A stretch of 64,000 nucleotides of DNA from positions 62,001-126,000 of the forward strand of contig NZMY01000050.1 of NCBI GenBank assembly GCA_002694745.1, in the 5' to 3' direction. The position numbers were made by a program, and so were the translations under genes. Source of the DNA: Croceicoccus sp. Its GTDB lineage: Bacteria > Pseudomonadota > Alphaproteobacteria > Sphingomonadales > Sphingomonadaceae. Positions 7,765-62,097 of the stretch are shown here, piece by piece; the first letter of the stretch is position 1, and each line of letters begins with the position of its first letter. The notes under the pieces were generated by a model. It was not told where the DNA came from and ran no database searches. It worked only from the letters and a program-made list of their open reading frames with translations.

Positions 7765-8906
7765 GGCATCGCTTCCTTTTCCAGCGGGACCGGCGAGCCT
7801 GCGCCTTCCCACAAATCGCGCGCCAGATCGTCGAGCCAGCGCGCCGCCTTGCGGTCCGCCTGCGAGTCGATCCAAGGCTCTGCATCGCCGGTGCGCGCGG
7901 CCCGGGCCTCGTCCCACAGCGTTGCCCAGCTGGCGGCATCGGACGGCCACGTCGGTCGCGAGGCGCAGACCCCGGCGCGGGCCAGCGCCTCGGCCTTGCG
8001 TTCCTGCTCTGCGAAATAGCGCCATTCGGGGATGGCGATCCACGGCTTGCCGGTCTGGATGATCTGATGGACAATGGTGTTGCCGCAGCTTGATACGATG
8101 CGGTCGGCGGCGGCGATGTGATCCGACGCATTGTCGACCCAGCCGCGCAGTTCCAGATTGCCGGGCGGCGTCTCGTGCCATTCGCTGAAGGTCTCGCCAA
8201 TGACGATCCAGTGGGTATCCGGCTCGGCCCGCGCGCCCAGCGTCAGCGGCGCGGTGGGCGTGCCCTGTCCGCCGCCGCCCGCGATGACGAGCATCAGTTC
8301 GCGGTCCCTCGGCGCGCGAATGCGCTCGCGCGCGCCGTCGCTCGTCTGCAAGGGCGCGATCCCCAGACCGGGGGCGTGGAAGATCTTGCTCAGCAAATGG
8401 TCGGGGCGGCCCGGCTGCTCCAGCCTTGCGTCATAGGGGGCGAGCAGGCCGACAGCGCCGTCATAGCTGGCGCGGTGCGCGGGGTCGTCGCGGTCGCCAT
8501 GCTGCAGCACTGCGACATGCGGGACCGAGGCGATGCGGCACAATTGCCCGATCTCTGCCGAGACGTCGGTGACGAACAGGGCAGGGCGCGCGCTGGCAAA
8601 CCAGCCGGTGATTTCGGCCACTGCCTCGGTAATGCCGTGCCACCCCAAGGGCGCGCAATGCAGCGTATCGGGCACCGGCATGCCCGCCAGCCGCGGCGCT
8701 TCGCTACCCTGCGCCTCGAACAGCGACGGGATGGTGCGAATCTCGATTCCCGGATTTAGCGGCGGGAAGATATCGTCCCTTGTGCAGAACATCGTGACGG
8801 GCCGCCACTCCACCACCGCATTGGCGAGATGCGCGCAGCGTTCGGCATGCCCGCGCCCCTGGTGATGCACGAAGATCCCGACGGGACGCGTGTCAGGCTG
8901 CGGCAT
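7761..8906 (-). CDS. MurG-like GT-B glycosyltransferase
   Basis: A 381-residue protein starting MPQPDTRPVGIFVHHQGRGH, whose GRGHAERC loop resembles the N-terminal acceptor loop of GT28/GT1-type enzymes. The second half has LMLVIAGGGGQG followed by a C-terminal IAAADRIVSSCGNTIVHQIIQTGKPWIAIP stretch, the donor-binding region of the MurG/UGT superfamily. The start overlaps the upstream fused enzyme by 14 bp and the stop overlaps the GT2 start. Length and context argue against true MurG (no cell-division genes nearby). It probably extends the product of the first enzyme. Confidence 0.78.
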   Translation of the reverse strand: MPQPDTRPVGIFVHHQGRGHAERCAHLANAVVEWRPVTMFCTRDDIFPPLNPGIEIRTIPSLFEAQGSEAPRLAGMPVPDTLHCAPLGWHGITEAVAEITGWFASARPALFVTDVSAEIGQLCRIASVPHVAVLQHGDRDDPAHRASYDGAVGLLAPYDARLEQPGRPDHLLSKIFHAPGLGIAPLQTSDGARERIRAPRDRELMLVIAGGGGQGTPTAPLTLGARAEPDTHWIVIGETFSEWHETPPGNLELRGWVDNASDHIAAADRIVSSCGNTIVHQIIQTGKPWIAIPEWRYFAEQERKAEALARAGVCASRPTWPSDAASWATLWDEARAARTGDAEPWIDSQADRKAARWLDDLARDLWEGAGSPVPLEKEAMP

Positions 8907-39883: not shown

Positions 39884-40032
39884 CGGACGTCCTTCGTGAC
39901 AAATTGGGTGTTCGGAAGAGTTGACCGGGCAGATAGGGGCTGCGGCGGTTTCGGGCAAGCGGTTAGCGCGTTGTGGGGAACCGGCGACGCGCCGTCTCGA
40001 CAGGCGGCGGCGGGCGCATTAGCAAACTGGCC

Positions 40033-41427
40033 ATGCACAAACCTCTTCTCGCGCTTGCCGCGCTTTCCGCCAGTGTTTCAACTCTCGCCGCCGCGCCCGC
40101 CATGGCGCAGCAGATGCCCGATGCGGACATCGCCGCCGCGCGCGACCAGGCGCTGGAGGATGACAGCGTCGCATGGGATTTCGTCGAGGGTATCACGACC
40201 GAGATCGGCCCCCGCATGGCCGGGACCGAGGACGAGGCGCGCGGGCGCGAATGGGCGATGCGCTGGCTGAGGGCGCAAGGCTTCTCGAACGTGCGGGACG
40301 AGCCTTTCACCATGCGGACATGGGTGCGCGGCGAGGAAGAGGCCGAGATCGTCTCGCCTTTCCCGCAGCCGATGCATGTGACCGCGCTGGGCAATAGCGC
40401 GTCGACCGGGACGCAGGGGCTGATCGGTGAAGTCGCGGTCTTCCCCTCGCGCGCCGCGCTGGAAGCGGTGCCGGACGGCAGCCTTGGCGGAAAGATCGCC
40501 TATGTCTCGCACGGGATGAAGCCGACGCAGGACGGATCGGGATACGGCCTTGCCGGACCGGCGCGCTGGACGGGCGCTTCGCTGGCGGAAAAGAAGGGCG
40601 CGTCGGCCATCGTGATCAAGTCGATCGGCACCGACCACCACCGCAACCCCCATGCCGGCGGCACGACGTTCGACGAGGGGCAGGACGCGATCCCCGCAGG
40701 CGCGCTGTCGATCCCCGATGCCGAAAACCTTGAGCGCATGGCGGAACGCGCCGCCGCTGCGGGCAAGCCGCTGATGCTGAAGCTGACGCTGACGCCGCGC
40801 GACATGGGCCAGACGACCAGCGGAAATGTGATCGCCGAAATCCCGGGCAGCGATCCCGAAGCGGGCGTGGCGCTGCTGGCCTGCCATCTCGACAGCTGGG
40901 ACCTCGCGACGGGTGCGTTCGACGACGGGGCGGGCTGCGGCATCATCGCCGCGGCGGCCAAGCGCGTGGCCGCGATGGGTCAACCGCGCCGCACGATCCG
41001 CCTGCTGTTCGCCGGGGCCGAGGAAGTCGGCGTGTTCGGCGGCAAGGCCTATGGCGCAGCGCACAAGGACGAGGCGCATGCCTTCGCGATGGAAAGCGAT
41101 TTCGGCGCGGACAAGGTATGGCGGCTCGATACGACGCGCCTAGCCATGCCGCTGGCCGACCGGCTGGCCGCGCTGCTCGCGCCGATGGGCGTGGTGCGCG
41201 GCACGCAGCCTGCGACCGGCGGTGCCGACACCGGCGCGATCGTCGAAGCGGTAGAGCCGGTCGTCATCGACCTGCAGCAGGACGGGACGCGCTATTTCGA
41301 CCTGCACCACACCCCCGACGACACGCTGGACAAGATCGATCCAGCTCAGCTTCGCCAGAATGTCGCGGCGTGGACGGCGACGGTCGCATTGCTCGCCAAT
41401 GCGCCGGGTGATCTGCAGGCCGAATAG
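40033..41427 (+). CDS. Exported M28-type aminopeptidase
   Basis: 464 residues with a signal peptide ending in APAMAQQ. The catalytic zinc domain shows LLACHLDSWDLATGAFDDGAGCGIIAAAAKR (His and bridging Asp), LLFAGAEEVGVFGG (Glu base and ligand), SDFGAD, and the final ligand in DLHHTPDDTLDKID. The middle of the protein holds a PA-like insertion. It removes N-terminal residues from peptides in the periplasm or outside. The gene stands alone with a hairpin after its stop. Confidence 0.88.
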   Translation: MHKPLLALAALSASVSTLAAAPAMAQQMPDADIAAARDQALEDDSVAWDFVEGITTEIGPRMAGTEDEARGREWAMRWLRAQGFSNVRDEPFTMRTWVRGEEEAEIVSPFPQPMHVTALGNSASTGTQGLIGEVAVFPSRAALEAVPDGSLGGKIAYVSHGMKPTQDGSGYGLAGPARWTGASLAEKKGASAIVIKSIGTDHHRNPHAGGTTFDEGQDAIPAGALSIPDAENLERMAERAAAAGKPLMLKLTLTPRDMGQTTSGNVIAEIPGSDPEAGVALLACHLDSWDLATGAFDDGAGCGIIAAAAKRVAAMGQPRRTIRLLFAGAEEVGVFGGKAYGAAHKDEAHAFAMESDFGADKVWRLDTTRLAMPLADRLAALLAPMGVVRGTQPATGGADTGAIVEAVEPVVIDLQQDGTRYFDLHHTPDDTLDKIDPAQLRQNVAAWTATVALLANAPGDLQAE

Positions 41428-41491: not shown

Positions 41492-42070
41492 TCAGCTGGC
41501 GGTGAAGACGCCGCAGGCGATGCGCGCACCGGCGTCGCCGCTGGGCTGGCTTTCGTAATCGTCGGGATCGGCGTGGATCACGAAGGCCGACCCGTCGGCA
41601 TCCATCAGCCCTTCGAACGTACCGGTGGAGGTCCCCTCCATCGAACCGGTGCCGTCGGCCGCGATCGTCAGATTCGGCAGATCGCCCGCATGCGGATTGG
41701 GCTCGGCGCTTTCGGTGCCGTGATTGACATCGGTCGGGTTCCAGTGACCGCCCGCGCTGGTGAAATCGCTGGCCGAGCAATCGCCCGTCGTATGGATATG
41801 CGCGCCGTGCTCGCCTTCGGGCATGCCCATCGCATTGATCGAGAGCATCAGCGTCTCGCCGCTGCCTGTCGCGGTTACGGTGCCGACTTCATTGCCGTTC
41901 GTGTCGTTCAGTACGGCCGTGGCGGTCTGAGTCATCGTATCGTCCGTCGCCATGTCCATGTCCTCGGCGGCCATGTCGGTTTCTGTGGACGTCGGGTCCG
42001 GACCGCAAGCGGCCAGCGCCAGCGCGCTGATGCCTGCAAGGACCGTGGTCGCGGCAAATCGGATCGTCAT
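41492..42070 (-). CDS. sodC: Cu/Zn superoxide dismutase-like lipoprotein
   Basis: 192 residues with lipobox ALAAC near residues 18-22 and an acidic, Met-rich linker (DMAAEDMDMATDDTM). The SOD domain keeps the copper and zinc ligands: GAHIHTTGDC, GGHWNP, HGTESAEPNPHAGDLPN and FVIHADPDD, plus the second disulfide Cys in ACGVF. It detoxifies superoxide in the periplasm from the membrane surface. The gene is monocistronic. Confidence 0.92.
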   Translation of the reverse strand: MTIRFAATTVLAGISALALAACGPDPTSTETDMAAEDMDMATDDTMTQTATAVLNDTNGNEVGTVTATGSGETLMLSINAMGMPEGEHGAHIHTTGDCSASDFTSAGGHWNPTDVNHGTESAEPNPHAGDLPNLTIAADGTGSMEGTSTGTFEGLMDADGSAFVIHADPDDYESQPSGDAGARIACGVFTAS

Positions 42071-42213
42071 GGGATGCTCCTTGGGTTTCGGCCATCGGCC
42101 TTACGGAATCGCTTGTGGCAGCGCACCGGATGCCGCTGCGTCTGATTAAAGCAATGCCCTTCGCCGCACGGTGTTCCCGCGCGGCGCTTTGCGTCCCGCC
42201 CGACGCCGCCGCG

Positions 42214-43083
42214 TCAGGCGGCGCGGCGGGGTGGGTGCATGGCGTGCAGGGGGGCGTGCTGGCGGGCGTGCAGGCGCGGCTCCAGCAATTCCGCCACAAC
42301 GTCATATGTGCGGTCATTGTCGACGTCGATGGCCTGGCTGCCGTCGGGCAGAACGACCGGCACGATACGATGGCCGATGCGGCGGGAAATCCGCTGCAGC
42401 CCGCCGTCCAGCGATACCAGCCTTGCGCGCAGCATCAGCAGGTTGACCAGACCGAAGGCATCGACGATGCGGCGCGCCTTCTTGGCGAATTGCCCGCCGC
42501 CGCGAAAGATCTCCGCCGCGGACAACGCCTTGCGGCTGCCGATGCCGTAAAGGTTGCAATTGGAATAGCCGCCATCGCGGAAGCCGTAGAAGCGGCGCTG
42601 CCCTTCGGGATGCGCGGCGCGCACCGATTCTTCCTGCGCGAGGGCCATGGCGGCATCGCACCGGTCCAGCGCCTTGGCCATCGCCGCGATCGATCGCTCG
42701 GTCAGCAGGGCATTGTCGGCGGTGGTGATAAGGAACGGCCCGTCATGATCCTCTGCCGCCGCAATCACGCTGTCGGCGATGTTAGACTGCGCGGCAATAG
42801 GCCGGACCCGCCCCGCAAGGCCGAGATGCGCCGCGATCGCCGCGATCTCGGAGAACTGATCTTTCTCGACCGACACGACGATCTCGCCGACATGCGCGCT
42901 GGATCCCAGCGTTTCGAGCACATAGGCGATAAGCGGGCGGCCGTGCAGCGGAATCAGGCACTTGTGCGTGGTGCCGAAACGCGCGGCCAGCGGGTCGAGC
43001 GCGCCCTGACGCTGTGCGGCAAGGACGATGGCGCGAAGCCGTGCGCTGGGCGCGGGGCGGGCGTTGAACGAATGGCTGTTCAT
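42214..43083 (-). CDS. MobA-like nucleotidyltransferase (NTP transferase domain)
   Basis: 289 residues. The N-terminus (RAIVLAAQRQGALDPLAARFGTTHKCLIPLHGRPLIAYVLETL) is the nucleotide-binding loop and Lys motif of MobA/IspD-like sugar or alcohol nucleotidyltransferases, and FLITTADNALLT supplies the metal-binding Asp. The C-terminal third is helical and unusual. It would activate a phosphorylated metabolite with a nucleotide. The start overlaps the ATP-grasp stop (ATGA), giving a two-gene operon. A GC-rich hairpin lies around its stop codon. Confidence 0.8.
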   Translation of the reverse strand: MNSHSFNARPAPSARLRAIVLAAQRQGALDPLAARFGTTHKCLIPLHGRPLIAYVLETLGSSAHVGEIVVSVEKDQFSEIAAIAAHLGLAGRVRPIAAQSNIADSVIAAAEDHDGPFLITTADNALLTERSIAAMAKALDRCDAAMALAQEESVRAAHPEGQRRFYGFRDGGYSNCNLYGIGSRKALSAAEIFRGGGQFAKKARRIVDAFGLVNLLMLRARLVSLDGGLQRISRRIGHRIVPVVLPDGSQAIDVDNDRTYDVVAELLEPRLHARQHAPLHAMHPPRRAA

Positions 43084-44120
43084 GCTGCAAGACTCTCCGA
43101 GATTTCGAGCAGCCCGTGGCGGGTCAGGCTTTCGCAAAGGATCGTTTCGATGAGGTCGCCATGGCTCCAGCCCAGAAGCGCCGCCGCGACGCCGAACACT
43201 TTCTGCGACCACAGATTGCAGTTCAGATTGACCTCGAGGAACCGGGCCTGTCCCGTTGCCGGGTCATAGCGGAATTCGAACCGGCCATAATCGAACGGGA
43301 AAAAGGTGCCTGCCATGCGCCTTGTATAGTCGGCAATCTGCGCGGCGGCGGCTTCGTCCCCGAACGGGACCAGCCGGTATTTCTGTTCGCGCTCCACCAG
43401 ATCGCGCTTTTCCTGATAGGTGCGCAGATGGGTGGGATCGGCCTGTTCGAACAGCATCATCGGCAGGATCGCGGGGTGACCGCCGCTGGTGATGACGGGC
43501 ACCTCGACATCGCTGCCGTCAAGGAAAGGCTCGACGATGGCGTCATGGCCCTCGTCGTGGATTTCCTCGATCGCGCGGCGGGCTTCGCTCCAGCTTCCCG
43601 CATCGCGCACGCCCCAGCTGGCCGAAGAGGCATTGGGCTTGATGACCAGCCTCTCGCCCTCGGGACAATGGGCCGGATCGACGGGCGCGCCGCGGCGGAA
43701 GATGCCCCAGGGCGCGGTGGGAATGCCGCGGGCGGCGGCCTCGAGCTTTGACAGGTGCTTGTCGTCGGAATGGCCGCGCAGGATCGGGCTGGCGCCTAGG
43801 AACGGAATGCCCAGCCGGGTGGCGAGCAGGGGCAGCATCATTTCGGAATTGAGGAAGCCGCCGCGATTGAGCAGCGGGAAGATGAAGTCGCAGCCCGGAT
43901 CGGCGAACAGAGCCTCGTAACCGTCGGCAAGCGAGACGCTGATACCCATGTCCTCGAGGCATCGCCGTATCTCGCCATGATAGACGGCGTGATTGCCGTC
44001 CTCATGGTGCAGGCCGCCTTGCCAGAAGACGTGCTTGGCGATGAACAGGACATGGAGGCGCGATTTCGCCTCCGCCGGAATGCGGGCAATCTGGGCCGCG
44101 CCGAAGGTCAGGTTCTGCAT
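43080..44120 (-). CDS. ATP-grasp ligase (D-Ala-D-Ala ligase-like)
   Basis: 346 residues. An N-terminal Rossmann-like part contains FIFPLLNRGGFLNSEMMLPLLATRLGIPFLGA, as in D-Ala-D-Ala ligases. LVIKPNASSASWGV is the ATP-binding lysine strand, VEPFLDGSDVEVPVI the next element, and the Mg-binding FLEVNLNCNLWS motif closes the active site. It should join a carboxylate to an amine or thiol using ATP. It is not the housekeeping Ddl, because no cell-wall genes are nearby. It is first in the minus-strand arm of the divergent cluster. Confidence 0.82.
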   Translation of the reverse strand: MQNLTFGAAQIARIPAEAKSRLHVLFIAKHVFWQGGLHHEDGNHAVYHGEIRRCLEDMGISVSLADGYEALFADPGCDFIFPLLNRGGFLNSEMMLPLLATRLGIPFLGASPILRGHSDDKHLSKLEAAARGIPTAPWGIFRRGAPVDPAHCPEGERLVIKPNASSASWGVRDAGSWSEARRAIEEIHDEGHDAIVEPFLDGSDVEVPVITSGGHPAILPMMLFEQADPTHLRTYQEKRDLVEREQKYRLVPFGDEAAAAQIADYTRRMAGTFFPFDYGRFEFRYDPATGQARFLEVNLNCNLWSQKVFGVAAALLGWSHGDLIETILCESLTRHGLLEISESLAA

Positions 44121-44287
44121 GACGCCAAGGATGAGGGCGCTATGTTACAGGCCCGAGTGGTTTGCGTCAGCGCGGTTACAGCGGGCGCGCTTTTTGCCTC
44201 GTCACGAAATTCAGGGCGTCACGAAACCGTCGCCGTTGCCGGTTAGGGCACGGCTGCAACATTGCCATTCAATCGCGGAGCTTGCGC

Positions 44288-45700
44288 GTGGCTGCAGCCC
44301 AATTCCTGTCCCGCTTGCTGACCCTTGGCGGTGACGACCGGATCACCGTGCCCGGCGGGCAGAATACCAACCGCTATGGCGCGTCGCCCTTTCCGCGCTC
44401 GACGCTGGGTTATGCGTCCTCGACCGCCAACGACATCTCTCTGCCCGCGTTCCGGCATCTGGCCGGGCTGATGGAACAATGGCCCGAAGATGCGCTGTCG
44501 GACGACGGGTTTTACGCCGCCGCGCTGGAAGGGATGCGCGGACGGATCAGGCAAGGCTGGGGGCTGGACGACGGCACCGCCATCGTGTTCGCGCCTTCGG
44601 GCACCGATCTGGAATATGTGCCGCTGGCGCTTGCGGGCGGGCCTGTCGTCAACGTGCTGATCGGTGCGGACGAGGTGGGAAGCGGCTGCGTGCTTTCGGC
44701 GGCGGGCCGGTATTTCGCGGACCGGACCGCGGTGGCCGAACGGACCCAAAGAGGCGCGGTGGTCGAAGGGCTGGAAGGGACCGGGCTGGTCGATATCGCG
44801 GTGCGCGAGACCTGCGGCAGGCCGCGGTCCAGTGCCGACATCACGCGCCGGATCGAGGACATCGCGCTTGCCGCGCATCAAGAGGGCCGCGATTGCCTGG
44901 TCCATGTCGTGTATGGATCGAAGACCGGGCTGGTGCTGCCCGATCTCGCCGATCTCGACCGGTTGCGCGCGCGGCATCCCGGCATGCGTTTCGTGGTCGA
45001 TGCCTGTCAGTCGCGGCTGTCGCCCGGCGATCTGGGCGCGCTGATCGAACGGGGCTGCATGGTGCTGCTGACCGGATCGAAATTCATGGGCGGCCCTCCG
45101 TTTTCGGGCATGGCGCTGGTGCCTGCAGAGTGGACGCCGCCGGCCAGCCTTGCGCAAGGGCTGGCGGCCATCTTCCGCCGGGGTGAATGGCCGGCAGACT
45201 GGAGAGCCTGCGATCATCTGCCGCGCGGTGCCAATCCCGGCCAGCTGTTGCGGCTGGAAGCGGCGCTGTTCGAACTGGAGCGATTCAGGGCGCTGGACGA
45301 AGCGAATGTCCGCGAAGTGATCGCCGCCTTCGCCAGACATGTCGCACTGCTGTCCGACGCGCTCGGCACCGCGCTGGTCGCCCCGTGTCTTACGGGGGAC
45401 GGGCTTCACACATCGACGCTCGCCACCCTCGATCTCAGCGTCCTGCCGTCGGCGCCCGATATCGCCGTGGCGCAGCGCTGGCACCGGGTGCTGGCGGCGC
45501 GCGGTCTGCGGCTGGGCCAGCCGGTCAAGTGCATTCCTTTGCCCGGCGGAGGCTGGGGCGGCACGCTGCGGATCAGCCTGTCGATGCCGCTGATCGCAGA
45601 GCTGTCGTGCCTTTCGCCGGGCGCGCTGGATGCGCGGCTTGCAGGCGACATGGGCATGATCCGTTCGGTGCTGTCCGCCGCGCAGAAAGGCGTTGCCTGA
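44288..45700 (+). CDS. PLP-dependent fold-type I enzyme
   Basis: 470 residues from GTG 44288. A phosphate-binding loop FAPSGTDLEY at 101-110, pyridine-binding Asp238 in FVVDACQSR and Schiff-base Lys265 in LTGSKFMGGPP make a complete PLP site of the aminotransferase class V / decarboxylase type. I do not recognise the exact family, and the N-terminal GGQNTNRYGASPFPRSTLGYASSTAND segment is distinctive. It diverges from the ATP-grasp gene and is followed 15 bp later by the flippase, so it probably makes an amino donor or amine for the pathway. Confidence 0.72.
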   Translation: MAAAQFLSRLLTLGGDDRITVPGGQNTNRYGASPFPRSTLGYASSTANDISLPAFRHLAGLMEQWPEDALSDDGFYAAALEGMRGRIRQGWGLDDGTAIVFAPSGTDLEYVPLALAGGPVVNVLIGADEVGSGCVLSAAGRYFADRTAVAERTQRGAVVEGLEGTGLVDIAVRETCGRPRSSADITRRIEDIALAAHQEGRDCLVHVVYGSKTGLVLPDLADLDRLRARHPGMRFVVDACQSRLSPGDLGALIERGCMVLLTGSKFMGGPPFSGMALVPAEWTPPASLAQGLAAIFRRGEWPADWRACDHLPRGANPGQLLRLEAALFELERFRALDEANVREVIAAFARHVALLSDALGTALVAPCLTGDGLHTSTLATLDLSVLPSAPDIAVAQRWHRVLAARGLRLGQPVKCIPLPGGGWGGTLRISLSMPLIAELSCLSPGALDARLAGDMGMIRSVLSAAQKGVA

Positions 45701-45715
45701 CGCGGCCATGCACGC

Positions 45716-46972
45716 ATGAGCAATATCTTTCGCAATATCGGATGGCTGCTGGGCAGTCGCGGCATCAATGCGGCTTTCAGCCTGGTCTATCTCGGCCTAG
45801 CCACCCGCACGCTGGGTATCGAGGGGTTCGGCGCGTTCGCGATGATCCTTGTGCTGGCGCAGGCCGTTGCGGGCATTGCCAGTTTCAACACGTGGCAGAT
45901 GCTGGTCAAATGGGGGCATTTCGATGGCGATGCGGCGCCCGCGACCGGCTTTGCCATGGCGCTCGACCTTGCCAGCATGGCGGGCGGTATTCTCCTTGCG
46001 CTGGCTGCCGGTTTTACCGCCCCGCTCTGGTTGCCATTGCCGCTGGGCAGCGGAGCGCTGATCGTCGCACTGTCCGCCGCGGCGCTGCTGGCGCTTCGGT
46101 CGACGCCGACCGGTATATTGCGGCTGCACGACCGCTATGACTTGTCCACCGCCGCCGAGGCGAGCCTGCCGCTGACCCGTGCGGCAGGCGCCGTGGCCGC
46201 CGCGATCTGGGTCCCGACACTGGCAGGATTTGTCGCCGCATGGGCGCTGGCGGAACTGATCTGCGCCGCGGCCTACTGGCTGCTGGCCGCGCGATTTGTT
46301 TCCGTCCGCTTATCGGATGTGTCGCTGGCCCGATTTCCTTCCCGCTATCCCGGTATCTGGCCTTTCGTCGTCGCTACCAGCCTGTCGCGAACGCTGGCGG
46401 TCGTATCGAAACAGGTCCTGCTGCTGGGCGTGGGCGCATTCGGCGGGGCGGCGCTGGCAGGCGGTTACCGCGTCGCATCGCAGCTGGGTCAGGCGCTGGT
46501 GCAGCTGGGCGAGGCGGTGTCGCGCGCGATCTATCCCGAATTCGTGCGCAGCGCGGACAGTTCCGCCGCGGTCACACGCCGCATGGTCGCGCTCGCCGCA
46601 TTGACGGGCGCCCTGTCCGTCGCCGCCGCGGTGATGGGCGGGCGGTTCGCGATTGAGTGGATAGCTGGCGCAGCATTTGCCTTTGCCTATCCGGCGCTGG
46701 TGATCCTGTCCTTCGCCGGCGCGATAGAGCTTGCAGCATCGAGCTGGGAAGCGCTTCTCGTGGCGCGGCAGCGGGCGGGCAGGGCGCTGGCCATGCGGCT
46801 GGGGCCGCTGGTGCTGGCGTTGTCCGCCATGCCCTGGGCCATCGCCGCCTATGGGCTGATCGGTGTCGCGGCCTGCATTCTTGCCGCCAGCGTGCTGACC
46901 TTCGCGGGGCTGGCGCATGCCGTTTCCGCGACGCGCGGCCAGTCAGGCGCCGCTATCGGCTCCATCGCCTGA
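45716..46972 (+). CDS. Polysaccharide flippase-like membrane protein (MOP superfamily)
   Basis: 418 residues with about twelve membrane helices. The start IFRNIGWLLGSRGINAAFSLVYLGLATRTLGIEGFGAFAMILVLAQ is the typical opening of Wzx/O-antigen flippases, and the Arg-rich loops lie between helices. It moves a lipid-linked molecule across the inner membrane. Its position after the PLP enzyme suggests that the nucleotidyltransferase, ligase and PLP enzyme build the molecule it exports; this is inference. Confidence 0.83.
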   Translation: MSNIFRNIGWLLGSRGINAAFSLVYLGLATRTLGIEGFGAFAMILVLAQAVAGIASFNTWQMLVKWGHFDGDAAPATGFAMALDLASMAGGILLALAAGFTAPLWLPLPLGSGALIVALSAAALLALRSTPTGILRLHDRYDLSTAAEASLPLTRAAGAVAAAIWVPTLAGFVAAWALAELICAAAYWLLAARFVSVRLSDVSLARFPSRYPGIWPFVVATSLSRTLAVVSKQVLLLGVGAFGGAALAGGYRVASQLGQALVQLGEAVSRAIYPEFVRSADSSAAVTRRMVALAALTGALSVAAAVMGGRFAIEWIAGAAFAFAYPALVILSFAGAIELAASSWEALLVARQRAGRALAMRLGPLVLALSAMPWAIAAYGLIGVAACILAASVLTFAGLAHAVSATRGQSGAAIGSIA

Positions 46973-47159
46973 CCGCCGGGTCAGAGATCGGGAACGGACA
47001 AGCGAGGCGCGGCCAAGTCATATTCGTGGCACCCGCGGCGCTTGTCACCTGCGTGTAGCATTCGTTGCCTAGCGCCCTCTCTTCGCCCGGTCTGTTTCCA
47101 GCCGATGTCGCGTGCGCGGTGCAGGGCCTGAAGATCGTGGGCGAGTTTGGGGGCAGACG

Positions 47160-48761
47160 ATGGCATCGCAACTGAATCTGGGGACGCAAAGGACGGGCGG
47201 TTTCGCCTTCAGCCTGACCGATGTGGCGTTTGCGCTGCTGCTTGCCGCCGCCAGCGTCGGCTTCATGGTCTGGGGCCTCGATTATACGGGTGGCGGCAAT
47301 GTCGCCATCTTTCTGCTCGCGACCGCATTCGGCCTGTTCATGGCCTTCAACATCGGCGGCAACGACGTCGCCAACAGCTTTGGCACCAGCGTCGGCGCGG
47401 GCACGATCACGGTCAAGCAGGCGCTGGCTATCGCGGCCGTCTTCGAAGTCAGCGGCGCGGTGATCGCGGGCGGCGAGGTCACCGACACGATCCGCAGCGG
47501 CATCGTCGACCTTGGCGCCATGCAGGTGCAGCCGATGCAGTTCGTCTTCATCATGATGGCGGCGCTGCTGGCGGCCGCGCTGTGGCTGTTGTTCGCGACG
47601 AAAAAGGGCTGGCCGGTATCGACCACCCATTCGATCGTGGGCGGCATCGTCGGCAGTTCGGTGATGCTGGGCTTCTCGCTTGGCGGGGGCGATGCGGCGC
47701 TGGCGCTGGTGCAATGGGACAAGATCGGCACCATCGCGGTGTCATGGGTGCTGTCGCCGGTGCTGGGCGGGCTGGTGTCCTATGGCCTCTTCTGGATGAT
47801 CAAGCGGCATATCCTGGCGTTCAACGACATGATGAAGGCGCATCTTGCGCGGCTGCACGAGGAACGCCGCAGGCTGCGCGACGAGCACAAGACGCGGTTC
47901 GAGCGGCTCTCCGACATCCAGAAGATCAGCTATACCCATATGATGATCCGCGATGCCGAGGCGCTGGACGAGGACGGGTTCACGCCCGACGACCTTGAAA
48001 CCGATTATTATCGCGGCCTGCACCAGCTGCGCACGCAAAAGGCGGATCTGGCCGCGCACAAGGCGCTGCAGAACTGGGTGCCCGTCGTCGCGGCGTTCGG
48101 GGCCGCGGTCATATCGGCGATGCTGCTGTTCAAGGGCCTCAAGCACATGGAGCTGGGGCTTTCCACGCTGCACAACTATCTGATCATGGCGATGATCGGG
48201 GCGGCGGCATGGATGGCGACCTATATCTTCGCCCGTACGCTCAAGGGCCGTTCGCTCGACACCTCGACCTTCCTGATCTTCAGCTGGCTGCAGGTGTTCA
48301 CCGCCAGCGGCTTTGCCTTCAGCCACGGCGCCAACGACATCGCCAATGCGATCGGCCCGTTCGCCGCCATTCTGGACGTCCTGCGCAATGGCAGCGTGGG
48401 GCCCAGTGCGGCGGTTCCGCCGCCTGCGATGATCGCGTTCGGCATCGCGCTGGTCGTCGGCCTTTGGTTCATCGGCAAGGAAGTGATCGCGACCGTCGGC
48501 CATCACCTGACCACCATGCATCCCGCATCGGGCTTTGCCGCCGAACTTGCCGCTGCCACGGTGGTCATGCTGGCCTCGACGCTGGGCCTGCCGGTGTCGA
48601 GCACGCATATATTGATCGGCGCGGTACTGGGGATCGGCCTTGCGAACCGGCAGACCAACTGGCGACTGATGAAGCCGATCGCGCTGGCATGGGTCATCAC
48701 CCTGCCGGCTGCGGCATCGATGGCGGCGCTCTCCTTCGCGGCTTTGGATGCGCTGTTCTAA
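47160..48761 (+). CDS. Inorganic phosphate transporter (PiT family)
   Basis: 533 residues, start ATG 47160. The two Pit signature repeats are [19 protein letters not shown] in the first half and [17 protein letters not shown] in the second; both carry the GGNDxANxxG or GANDIANA core. A long charged cytosolic loop ([20 protein letters not shown]) separates them. It imports phosphate (or metal phosphate) with protons. No PhoU-like protein is adjacent. Confidence 0.94.
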
Positions 48762-60582: not shown

Positions 60583-62097
60583 ATGAACCGCCCTAAGTTT
60601 TTTCATAAGAATATCCGTCGCCGCACCGGTCTGGCGCTGGCCTCTGCCGGTGCGCTGGCGATGGCGCTGACAGGCTGTGTCGGCGCGACCACCGCGCCGG
60701 TGACGCCGGGGCAGGCCGGCGCGATCACGGCGCAGGAAAAGCAGTACGGCGCCGAGGCGCATCCGCAATTGCTGCAACAGTTCGGCGGCGCATATAACGC
60801 GCCGGTGTCCAATTACGTCGAGCGCGTGGGCAAGAATATCGCCGCGCAGTCCGGCCTCGCCAGCGCGCGCGATGCCTATACGGTGACGCTGCTCAACAGC
60901 CCGGTGAACAACGCCTTCGCGATCCCGGGCGGCTATATCTACACCACGCGCCAGCTTGTCGGGCTGATGGATAACGAGGCCGAGCTGGCCGCCGTGCTTG
61001 GGCACGAGGTCGGCCATGTCGCCGCCCGCCATTCGCAGCAGCGCCAGCAGGCGGCGCAGCAAAACTCTCTGCTGGGCGTGCTGGGCGCGGTGGTGTCGGG
61101 CGTGCTGCTCGGCAATTCGCAGCTGGGCCAGCTGGGGCAGGAACTGGCGATGCAGGGCTCGCAGCTCCTTACCCTCAAATACTCGCGCAGTCAGGAAATG
61201 CAGGCCGACGACCTGGGCGTCGCCTATCTGTCGAGCGCGGGTTACGAGCCGATGGCCATGGCGTCGGTTCTGGAAAGCCTTGCGCAGCAGAACAATCTCG
61301 ACGCGCAGCTGATGGGTTCGTCCGCGTCGAATCAGGTGCCCGAATGGGCCAGCACCCACCCCGATCCCGCCAGCCGGGTGCGCGATGCGGCGCAGGATGC
61401 GCAGGGCAAGCCGGGTTCGGTGACGAATCGCGACGCGTTCCTTACTGCGATCAACGGCATGCTGTACGGCGACGATCCCAAGCAGGGCATCGTCGACGGG
61501 GCGAGCTTCGTCCACCCGGACCTGCGTTTCGCGTTCCAGGCGCCGAGCGGCTTTTTCCTCGTGAACGGCACGCAGGCGGTGTCGATCAGCGGCCAGTCGG
61601 GTCGCGGGCAGCTGTCGTCGGGTCCCTATTCGGGCAATTTGAACAACTACATCAACAGCGTGTTCGGCGCGCTGACGGGTGACGGGCAGGCGCAGGTGCA
61701 GCCCGCGCAGATCCAGCGCACGACGGTGAACGGCATTCCGGCGGCCTATGGCACCGCGCGCGCCAATACCGGAAATGGATCGGTGGACGTGACGGTGTTC
61801 GCCTATGAATTCTCGAACAGTCAGGCGTTCCATTTCGTCACGATCACGCAGGCCGGGCAGGCGGGCGTGTTCAACCCGATGTACCAGTCGATGCGCCGCA
61901 TTTCGGCAAGCGAGGCGGCGAATGTGAAGCCGCGCAAGATCTCGGTCGTGACCGTCAAGTCAGGCGACACGATGCAGGGTCTGGCGAGCCGGATGGCCTA
62001 TGACAACGGAAAGCTGGAGCGCTTCATGGTGCTCAATTCGCTGTCGCAGAACTCGACGTTACAGCCGGGGCAGAAGGTGAAGCTGGTCACCTATTGA
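60583..62097 (+). CDS. M48 family metalloprotease lipoprotein with LysM domain
   Basis: About 504 residues from ATG 60583, placed nine bases after GGGAG; ATG 60577 is the alternative. The lipobox is ALTGC near residue 28. The zinc motif is LGHEVGHVAARHSQQRQQ near residue 140, with the third-ligand Glu in SRSQEMQADDLGVAYL. A C-terminal LysM repeat (VTVKSGDTMQGLASRMAY...LQPGQKVKLV) binds peptidoglycan. It resembles BepA/LoiP-type periplasmic proteases that control outer-membrane assembly. Confidence 0.92.
   Translation: MNRPKFFHKNIRRRTGLALASAGALAMALTGCVGATTAPVTPGQAGAITAQEKQYGAEAHPQLLQQFGGAYNAPVSNYVERVGKNIAAQSGLASARDAYTVTLLNSPVNNAFAIPGGYIYTTRQLVGLMDNEAELAAVLGHEVGHVAARHSQQRQQAAQQNSLLGVLGAVVSGVLLGNSQLGQLGQELAMQGSQLLTLKYSRSQEMQADDLGVAYLSSAGYEPMAMASVLESLAQQNNLDAQLMGSSASNQVPEWASTHPDPASRVRDAAQDAQGKPGSVTNRDAFLTAINGMLYGDDPKQGIVDGASFVHPDLRFAFQAPSGFFLVNGTQAVSISGQSGRGQLSSGPYSGNLNNYINSVFGALTGDGQAQVQPAQIQRTTVNGIPAAYGTARANTGNGSVDVTVFAYEFSNSQAFHFVTITQAGQAGVFNPMYQSMRRISASEAANVKPRKISVVTVKSGDTMQGLASRMAYDNGKLERFMVLNSLSQNSTLQPGQKVKLVTY

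Follow-up and report, generated by a model that had tools for sequence, protein, structure and literature searches.

We examined a cluster of four genes in a 64,000-nucleotide stretch of a Croceicoccus genome of 4.02 Mb (contig C15 of genome G000, positions 62001–126000; the whole stretch is referred to as the window). The genes encode a MobA-like nucleotidyltransferase (NTase; P0001 family; 42214–43083, minus strand), an ATP-grasp ligase resembling D-alanine-D-alanine ligase (Ddl; 43080–44120, minus strand), a pyridoxal phosphate (PLP)-dependent enzyme (44288–45700, plus strand) and a Wzx-like flippase of the MOP superfamily (45716–46972, plus strand). In our estimate the chances are about even that, within the alphaproteobacterial phosphosphingolipid pathway to ceramide phosphoglycerate (CPG), this cluster forms a side branch that would make a nitrogen-bearing head group. 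The link of the cluster to phosphosphingolipids is moderately supported, and the four genes probably serve to make and export an unusual membrane lipid in an amino-modified form. An exported envelope molecule decorated with an amine or amino acid had been proposed in the initial annotation, and this idea fits the gene evidence. The same annotation saw a complete small pathway lying outside the standard envelope sets. The pathway is probably not complete, as the NTase and flippase have relatives in the gene sets for CPG and ceramide diphosphoglycerate (CPG2) and further genes of these sets are found elsewhere in the genome. Because these relatives and other genes belong to the CPG/CPG2 set, the cluster is not outside every known set, and it has the look of a branch off a recently described lipid pathway.

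The NTase and flippase families are linked to phosphosphingolipid genes

The window NTase matched PF12804 (NTP_transf_3) at 53.7 bits in a Pfam scan (cut-off 27), and TTHA0179 was its sole solved relative by sequence at E 0.01. NTase relatives were present in 26 of 240 genomes of the class, its own included. Outside the order Sphingomonadales, 18 NTase loci were covered, from 17 of the 25 other genomes. In 15 of these loci the NTase gene lay at most 3.5 kb from a cerS-type GNAT gene (13 loci) or from fatty-acid hydroxylase and LptF/G genes (2 loci), the exceptions without ceramide- or Lpt-type neighbours being L124–L126. Several NTase loci also carried DAGK, CDP-alcohol-transferase, PF00483-type nucleotidyltransferase and serine-palmitoyltransferase-like genes (one representative of each neighbour family was scanned and the members were assigned by similarity). 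The gene order outside Sphingomonadales matches the published Caulobacter CC_1168–CC_1152 locus, with the NTase in the position of CC_1153. Names such as cerS and CpgA rest here on Pfam families and gene order rather than on comparison with Caulobacter sequences. According to the accessible text of PMC11324152, cerS is CC_1154, the Lpt permeases are CC_1155/1156, and CC_1153, a CofC-like nucleotidyltransferase needed for CPG2, is followed by CC_1152. CCNA_01210 is described as CpgD, which makes CDP-glycerate (PMC12275187 and PMC13228409, as far as their accessible parts go), and from the numbering and a shared phenotype we take it to be CC_1152.

Phylogeny of the NTases (71 rows) separated two clans on a branch with support of 97/92. 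The first comprises 23 rows (15 cerS-type, 4 cpg-type and 4 other), and the second 48 rows (41 ATP-grasp-linked, 5 flippase-only and 2 other). The window NTase falls in the 48-row clan; a second NTase of the same genome as the window (L142) falls in the cerS/cpg clan. In this tree, a genome of the same genus (G010, L103) is placed among Croceicoccus loci by a branch of 0.01. Judged by position and published description, CC_1153 would belong to a homologous family, with the window NTase in a separate clan.

Scored against PF01943 (Polysacc_synt), the flippase reached 31.1 bits (gathering cut-off 28.2), which places it among MOP/Wzx-type proteins. Its relatives adjoin an NTase alone or CPG2-type genes. 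In a tree of 24 rows, the window flippase joined those of NTase–flippase pairs (100/100), and the flippases of Novosphingobium-type loci joined one from a cpg locus (95/97).

Within Sphingomonadales, the P0001-family NTase was found in 129 of 192 genomes, a CpgC-like gene in 128 and both in 128, so that the NTase occurred alone only in G344 (match thresholds: ATP-grasp 1e-40, PLP enzyme 1e-20, CpgC 1e-15, NTase 1e-10). A second sample, of 196 genomes, held the ATP-grasp gene in 49 and the PLP gene in 16, all 16 being among the 49; we assume that the two samples are nested except for G492. The CpgC list contained 48 of the 49 ATP-grasp genomes, G492 being either not sampled or without a match, and every one of the 16 PLP genomes carried a CpgC-like gene. 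Among genomes without the ATP-grasp gene, 80 of 144 had CpgC (G492 taken as not sampled). Fisher values for these co-occurrences ignore relatedness and are not used here as a measure of evidence.

The four genes also share a genomic slot with CPG genes. A CpgB-like kinase gene follows the PLP and flippase genes in 8 of the 65 loci recovered with the PLP protein, all of the Novosphingobium type (L055, L062, L067, L071, L072, L076, L082 and L087). It is followed by a CpgC-like gene in all seven whose contig reaches that far (partly in L062); identities of the group representatives were 25% (CpgB-like) and 35% (CpgC-like). On the other side, seven of the eight loci have a gene for an M20-type hydrolase, named from its sequence with no family scan. 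In Novosphingobium-type loci the four genes fill the interval between cpgB/C and the hydrolase. CpgA-like, CpgD-like and flippase genes stand there in L150 and L153, and L151, L152 and L155 have none of these (no kinase label was assigned in L152 and L153). Therefore, the cluster takes up a position that belongs to the CPG gene set.

No cpgA–D gene was found in the window, and candidates are located elsewhere in the genome. The second NTase (L142) lies beside CpgA- and CpgD-like genes, the latter named by order and similarity, and a second flippase. Contig C44 (L148) carries CpgC- and CpgB-like genes without the hydrolase-flanked slot, contig C10 a candidate serine palmitoyltransferase (Spt; 46%), and kinase-, CdsA- and CDP-alcohol-transferase-like genes of the CPG/CPG2 set occur outside the window.

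The ATP-grasp/PLP pair is conserved in Sphingomonadales

The 65 loci found with the PLP protein were, by title, nearly all from Sphingomonadales. Among the 62 whose upstream stretch reaches 1200 bases or more, 60 kept the divergent ATP-grasp/PLP pair, the exceptions being L064 and the distant L090; L026, L043 and L081 had too little upstream DNA to be counted. Of these 60 pairs, 59 were scored by script and one is L038, where the PLP frame continues across the ATP-grasp gene. The pair is located at varied chromosomal housekeeping sites across the order. In the 53 loci with long flanks, an NTase gene lay within 6 kb in 21 and a P0004-family flippase gene in 10. Both were present in 10, which therefore hold all four genes within about 6 kb, and in five loci the ATP-grasp gene was present in at least two copies. 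A flippase of another group lies nearby in L030 and L086.

Adjacency of all four genes is not needed. The NTase adjoins the ATP-grasp or PLP gene in five of the 16 PLP genomes (G000, G144, G379, G446 and G457). NTase surroundings were covered in five of the 11 others (all but G358, G364, G426, G456, G458 and G479), and in each of these five (G390, G407, G461, G468 and G488) the NTase is paired with a P0004-family flippase, with the ATP-grasp/PLP pair on another contig. The prediction that the four genes are conserved together, whose failure had been named as grounds for abandoning the initial annotation, stands for the ATP-grasp/PLP pair; for the full set, covered in part, all four genes were together in several genomes and in two separate pairs in the five genomes just named.

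Distribution within the genus is patchy, with the PLP locus in 5 of 14 genomes, that of the window included. The locus exists there in two versions, with 69–100% versus 47–48% identity to the window (compared with G003, G010, G012 and G013), which suggests horizontal transfer or old paralogy.

The ligase has a Ddl-like fold and a different acceptor motif

The ligase scored 42.3 bits against PF07478 (Dala_Dala_lig_C; cut-off 24) and 62.1 bits against the D-Ala-D-Ala ligase model TIGR01205, for which the curated cut-off is 245.65. Structure-based comparison, which the initial annotation had recommended for both enzymes, assigned a fold to each. The predicted ligase structure (pLDDT 90.9) was closest to DdlB (Z 29.7, rmsd 2.7 over 303 residues), with 15–26% identity to its matches in structural alignments. 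Lys161, Glu296 and Asn298 are invariant in 28 family rows, and the model shows a Ddl-type ATP-grasp fold that retains the conserved ATP and metal residues. The acceptor-side motif of Ddl, EVNxxPGMT, is replaced by EVNLNCNLWS, in which Asn302, Leu303 and Trp304 are invariant across the family alignment. A better ddl candidate is found elsewhere in the genome (C11:170727), with 209.9 bits over positions 1–317 of 318, also under the 245.65 cut-off. The window ligase is probably not the cell's own Ddl, and a role as D-Ala ligase was set aside on the low TIGR01205 score and the replaced acceptor motif.

Two further arrangements of ATP-grasp genes were observed. Two copies lie near the PLP gene in L030, L032, L034, L069, L086 and L122; the second is 49–52% identical to the window ligase in the first five and 56% identical in the genome of L122, and the copies are possibly ligases for two acceptors. 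L117–L120, from families f74 and f77 of the order, combine an ATP-grasp gene with one or two P0001-family NTases, and no PLP gene was found there; in L117, L119 and L120 such loci are near genes that, judged by sequence, resemble an Mla lipid-transport operon.

The PLP enzyme belongs to a family that accompanies ATP-grasp ligases

The PLP protein, read from a GTG start, had no Pfam or NCBIfam match at E 0.1. Three of 42 family members touched Aminotran_5 (best E 0.0038), and the two for which bits were shown fell under the cut-off. The predicted structure (mean pLDDT 91.3) has a fold of type I and is class V-like. It was nearest to NifS-like proteins (Z 25.6, 12% identity), followed by PhnW (Z 23.9) and alanine-glyoxylate aminotransferase (AGAT; Z 23.6), and the top Foldseek rows were a mix of serine hydroxymethyltransferases and NifS-like proteins. 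Since 50 rows of the structure comparison, including desulfurases, lyases and transaminases, fell within about 3 Z units, the fold gives no pointer to the reaction.

All 44 rows share Lys265, Asp238, Gln241, the SGT loop and Lys212, and the C-terminal Arg428 is nearly invariant. In the model, Lys265 would form the Schiff base and Asp238 would contact the pyridine nitrogen, as in fold type I class V enzymes; these roles are presumed by analogy with NifS. The Arg428 motif is one that we take to be similar to the substrate-carboxylate arginine of class V enzymes, and an alpha-amino acid substrate would therefore fit. Two more specific roles were considered. That of a cysteine desulfurase (NifS/SufS) was set aside, as neither alignment (A1, A3) has an invariant Cys after Lys265. 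For a PntC/AEP-transaminase role in phosphonate metabolism, raised by the PhnW fold match, no phosphonate gene was recognised among the scanned neighbours, most neighbours being unannotated.

The family extends beyond Sphingomonadales. Distant loci were taken from 11 of the 17 distant genomes matched (all but G093, G117, G169, G211, G231 and G270), and in all 11 (L091–L100 and L102) the PLP gene shares its gene row with a gene of the ATP-grasp type. The partner ligase is of an unnamed type in eight (weakly RimK-like, profile E 1.4e-4), PF14397 in one (L096) and cyanophycin-synthetase-like in two (one of them scanned). Ten of the 11 also encode a protein homologous to the L094 decarboxylase (PF00282). 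The PLP gene is thus a constant partner across four types of ligase, which suggests that the enzyme serves the ligase, either by making its amine or amino-acid substrate or by acting on its product.

The trio of PLP enzyme, ATP-grasp ligase and group II decarboxylase is kept in these other proteobacteria (L091–L095, L097–L100 and L102). It sits after flagellar hook genes in L092 (by family scans) and in L091 and L093 (by similarity), and adjoins a tyrosyl-tRNA synthetase gene in L099. Immediately ahead of its PLP gene, L092 encodes a 280-residue protein (8011–8850) that has relatives in L091 and L093 and no Pfam or NCBIfam match. Elsewhere, downstream of the PLP gene in L057 (6257–12169), scans identified a flippase of another group, a PEMT-type methyltransferase, a P-loop protein, a second, divergent NTase and a membrane dipeptidase; L054 has the same genes by similarity.

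A proposed pathway and its alternatives

From gene linkage, co-occurrence, folds and conserved catalytic motifs, and from the ties of the NTase and flippase families to loci of the sphingolipid type, we infer substrates, an order of steps and a product as follows. The PLP enzyme would make or reshape a small amine or amino acid, and the Ddl-like ligase would couple it through an amide to a carboxylate, for example that of (phospho)glycerate, free or lipid-bound. An amide ligase of the ATP-grasp type would find a natural target in the glycerate carboxylate of CPG-type head groups, and the C. jejuni capsule gives a worked-out precedent for amidating a carboxylate of the envelope (accessible text of PMC11800397). 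The NTase could turn a phosphorylated precursor of the head group into an activated nucleotide diphosphate derivative, which a transferase encoded elsewhere would place on ceramide 1-phosphate or CPG, and the flippase would move the finished lipid across the inner membrane. A wider version is that many Sphingomonadales make an undescribed sphingolipid class with an amide- or amino-acid-bearing phosphoglycerate-type head group, through a new PLP family dedicated to partnering ATP-grasp ligases throughout Proteobacteria, whether these are Ddl-like, ATPgrasp_ST, cyanophycin-synthetase-like or of a fourth type, and frequently joined by a group II decarboxylase; this we offer tentatively, as a possibility that we would not bet on. 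In the open-licence literature searched, no title or abstract opening described this gene set.

Several observations weigh against a role in phosphosphingolipid synthesis. As the window NTase lies outside the cerS/cpg clan, it may have a different substrate. Co-occurrence is in part a matter of ancestry, given how common CpgC is in the order, and the CpgB-like match is weak at 25% identity. No CPG- or ceramide-type gene was present in the stretch covered for 57 of the 65 PLP loci, nor in the window, and no ceramide-type gene was found among the scanned neighbours of the distant PLP homologues. The ATP-grasp gene occurs without the PLP gene in 33 of its 49 genomes, where it is also accompanied by an NTase, and one PLP genome, G358, gave only a weak NTase match (112 bits). 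A cerS query of the window's genome returned no match, in a search that had no positive control and carries no weight.

The alternative that survives best, although we regard it as rather unlikely, is that a uronic acid in a glycosphingolipid or exported polysaccharide is amidated or aminoacylated, the NTase making an activated sugar or alcohol and the MOP protein being a Wzx-type flippase. A Wzx-like flippase and a MobA/CTP_transf-like NTase would suit such a role, amidated glucuronate in Campylobacter jejuni gives a precedent (accessible text of PMC11800397), and the distant PLP homologue of L096 adjoins a sugar-transfer-associated ATP-grasp gene (PF14397). Against this, the NTase family tracks sphingolipid-type genes, and no glycosyltransferase was seen among the few neighbour groups scanned, most neighbours being unannotated. 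It is distinctly unlikely that the product is a small soluble amino-acid conjugate, such as a dipeptide-like natural product, with the MOP protein as its exporter. Pairs of ATP-grasp and PLP enzymes are typical of small amino-acid-conjugate pathways, and the trio formed by the distant homologues would agree with one; however, the link of the NTase family to ceramide-type genes and the slot shared with cpgA/cpgD-like genes would be left unexplained, and the pair is conserved over the order at chromosomal housekeeping sites. Finally, the ligase might serve peptidoglycan synthesis as an alternative D-Ala-D-Ala or D-Ala-X ligase, accompanied by a PLP racemase and a flippase of the lipid II type; this reading draws on the Ddl fold (Z 29.7) and on the inclusion of MurJ in the MOP superfamily, and is very improbable given the TIGR01205 score far under its cut-off, EVNLNCNLW in place of EVNxxPGM, the better (itself sub-cut-off) ddl candidate in the genome and an NTase left without a function.

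Organisation of the locus

The four open reading frames are arranged in two closely spaced divergent pairs, as first annotated. The NTase start was assigned to the ATG at 43083, because the listed frame, from a GTG and extending to 43212, is too long and runs into the ATP-grasp gene. With this start, the NTase ATG overlaps the ATP-grasp stop codon as ATGA (4 bases). The PLP and flippase genes are 15 bp apart, and the flippase gene begins with ATG. Between the divergent pairs lies an intergenic region of 167 bp (44121–44287), exactly as had been claimed for a shared promoter region; the promoter itself was not borne out, as no sigma-70-like site was found in 42000–47300. A terminator scan was also empty. 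The flanking genes are unrelated and encode an M28 peptidase (39973–41427), SodC (41492–42070) and a PHO4 transporter (47112–48761).

Significance and comparison with known systems

The anionic phosphosphingolipid CPG2 partly supports survival of Caulobacter without lipopolysaccharide (accessible text of PMC12275187) and has been proposed as a polymyxin target there (accessible text of PMC11324152). If the cluster is indeed a side branch of this pathway, an amine or amino acid on the head group would alter the charge of the outer membrane across a large group of bacteria that make sphingolipids, and testable substrates would follow for CC_1153 and the window NTase. The PLP family lies outside all curated models searched, so its chemistry is unassigned wherever the family occurs.

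The closest known system is the Caulobacter CPG/CPG2 pathway (cpgA–D, CC_1152, CC_1153, CC_1158–1161 and the potential flippase CC_1166; accessible text of PMC11324152). As in Caulobacter, relatives of the NTase take the place of CC_1153, next to cerS-type and Lpt permease genes, MOP flippases in the order are found beside cpgA/cpgD-like genes, and CpgB/CpgC-like genes are directly downstream in Novosphingobium-type loci. In contrast, the accessible text of PMC11324152 names no ATP-grasp protein (0 occurrences) and no PLP enzyme besides Spt, and the window NTase belongs to the other clan.

In the capsule of C. jejuni, PLP enzymes reportedly supply the amine. The amide ligase acts there after incorporation of the sugar, and Cj1438C, in amidation of the HS:2 capsule, resembles the proposed ligase step in forming an amide on an envelope carboxylate with ATP (accessible text of PMC11800397). 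It differs in acting on a uronic acid rather than glycerate, and the part of PMC11800397 that was searched names no ATP-grasp protein and shows no counterpart of the NTase or flippase.

With D-alanine-D-alanine ligases, the window ligase shares the fold, the ATP-grasp core and the Glu-x-Asn site, in contrast to its low identity, its score far under the family cut-off, its other acceptor motif and its other gene context. The PLP enzyme is set apart from class V enzymes (NifS/IscS, AGAT and PhnW) by an identity of 9–16%, its own SK(T/L/S) motif and ExGxG-type loop and the lack of an invariant Cys after the PLP lysine, whereas its fold, PLP lysine, Asp, Gln and C-terminal Arg are those of this class.

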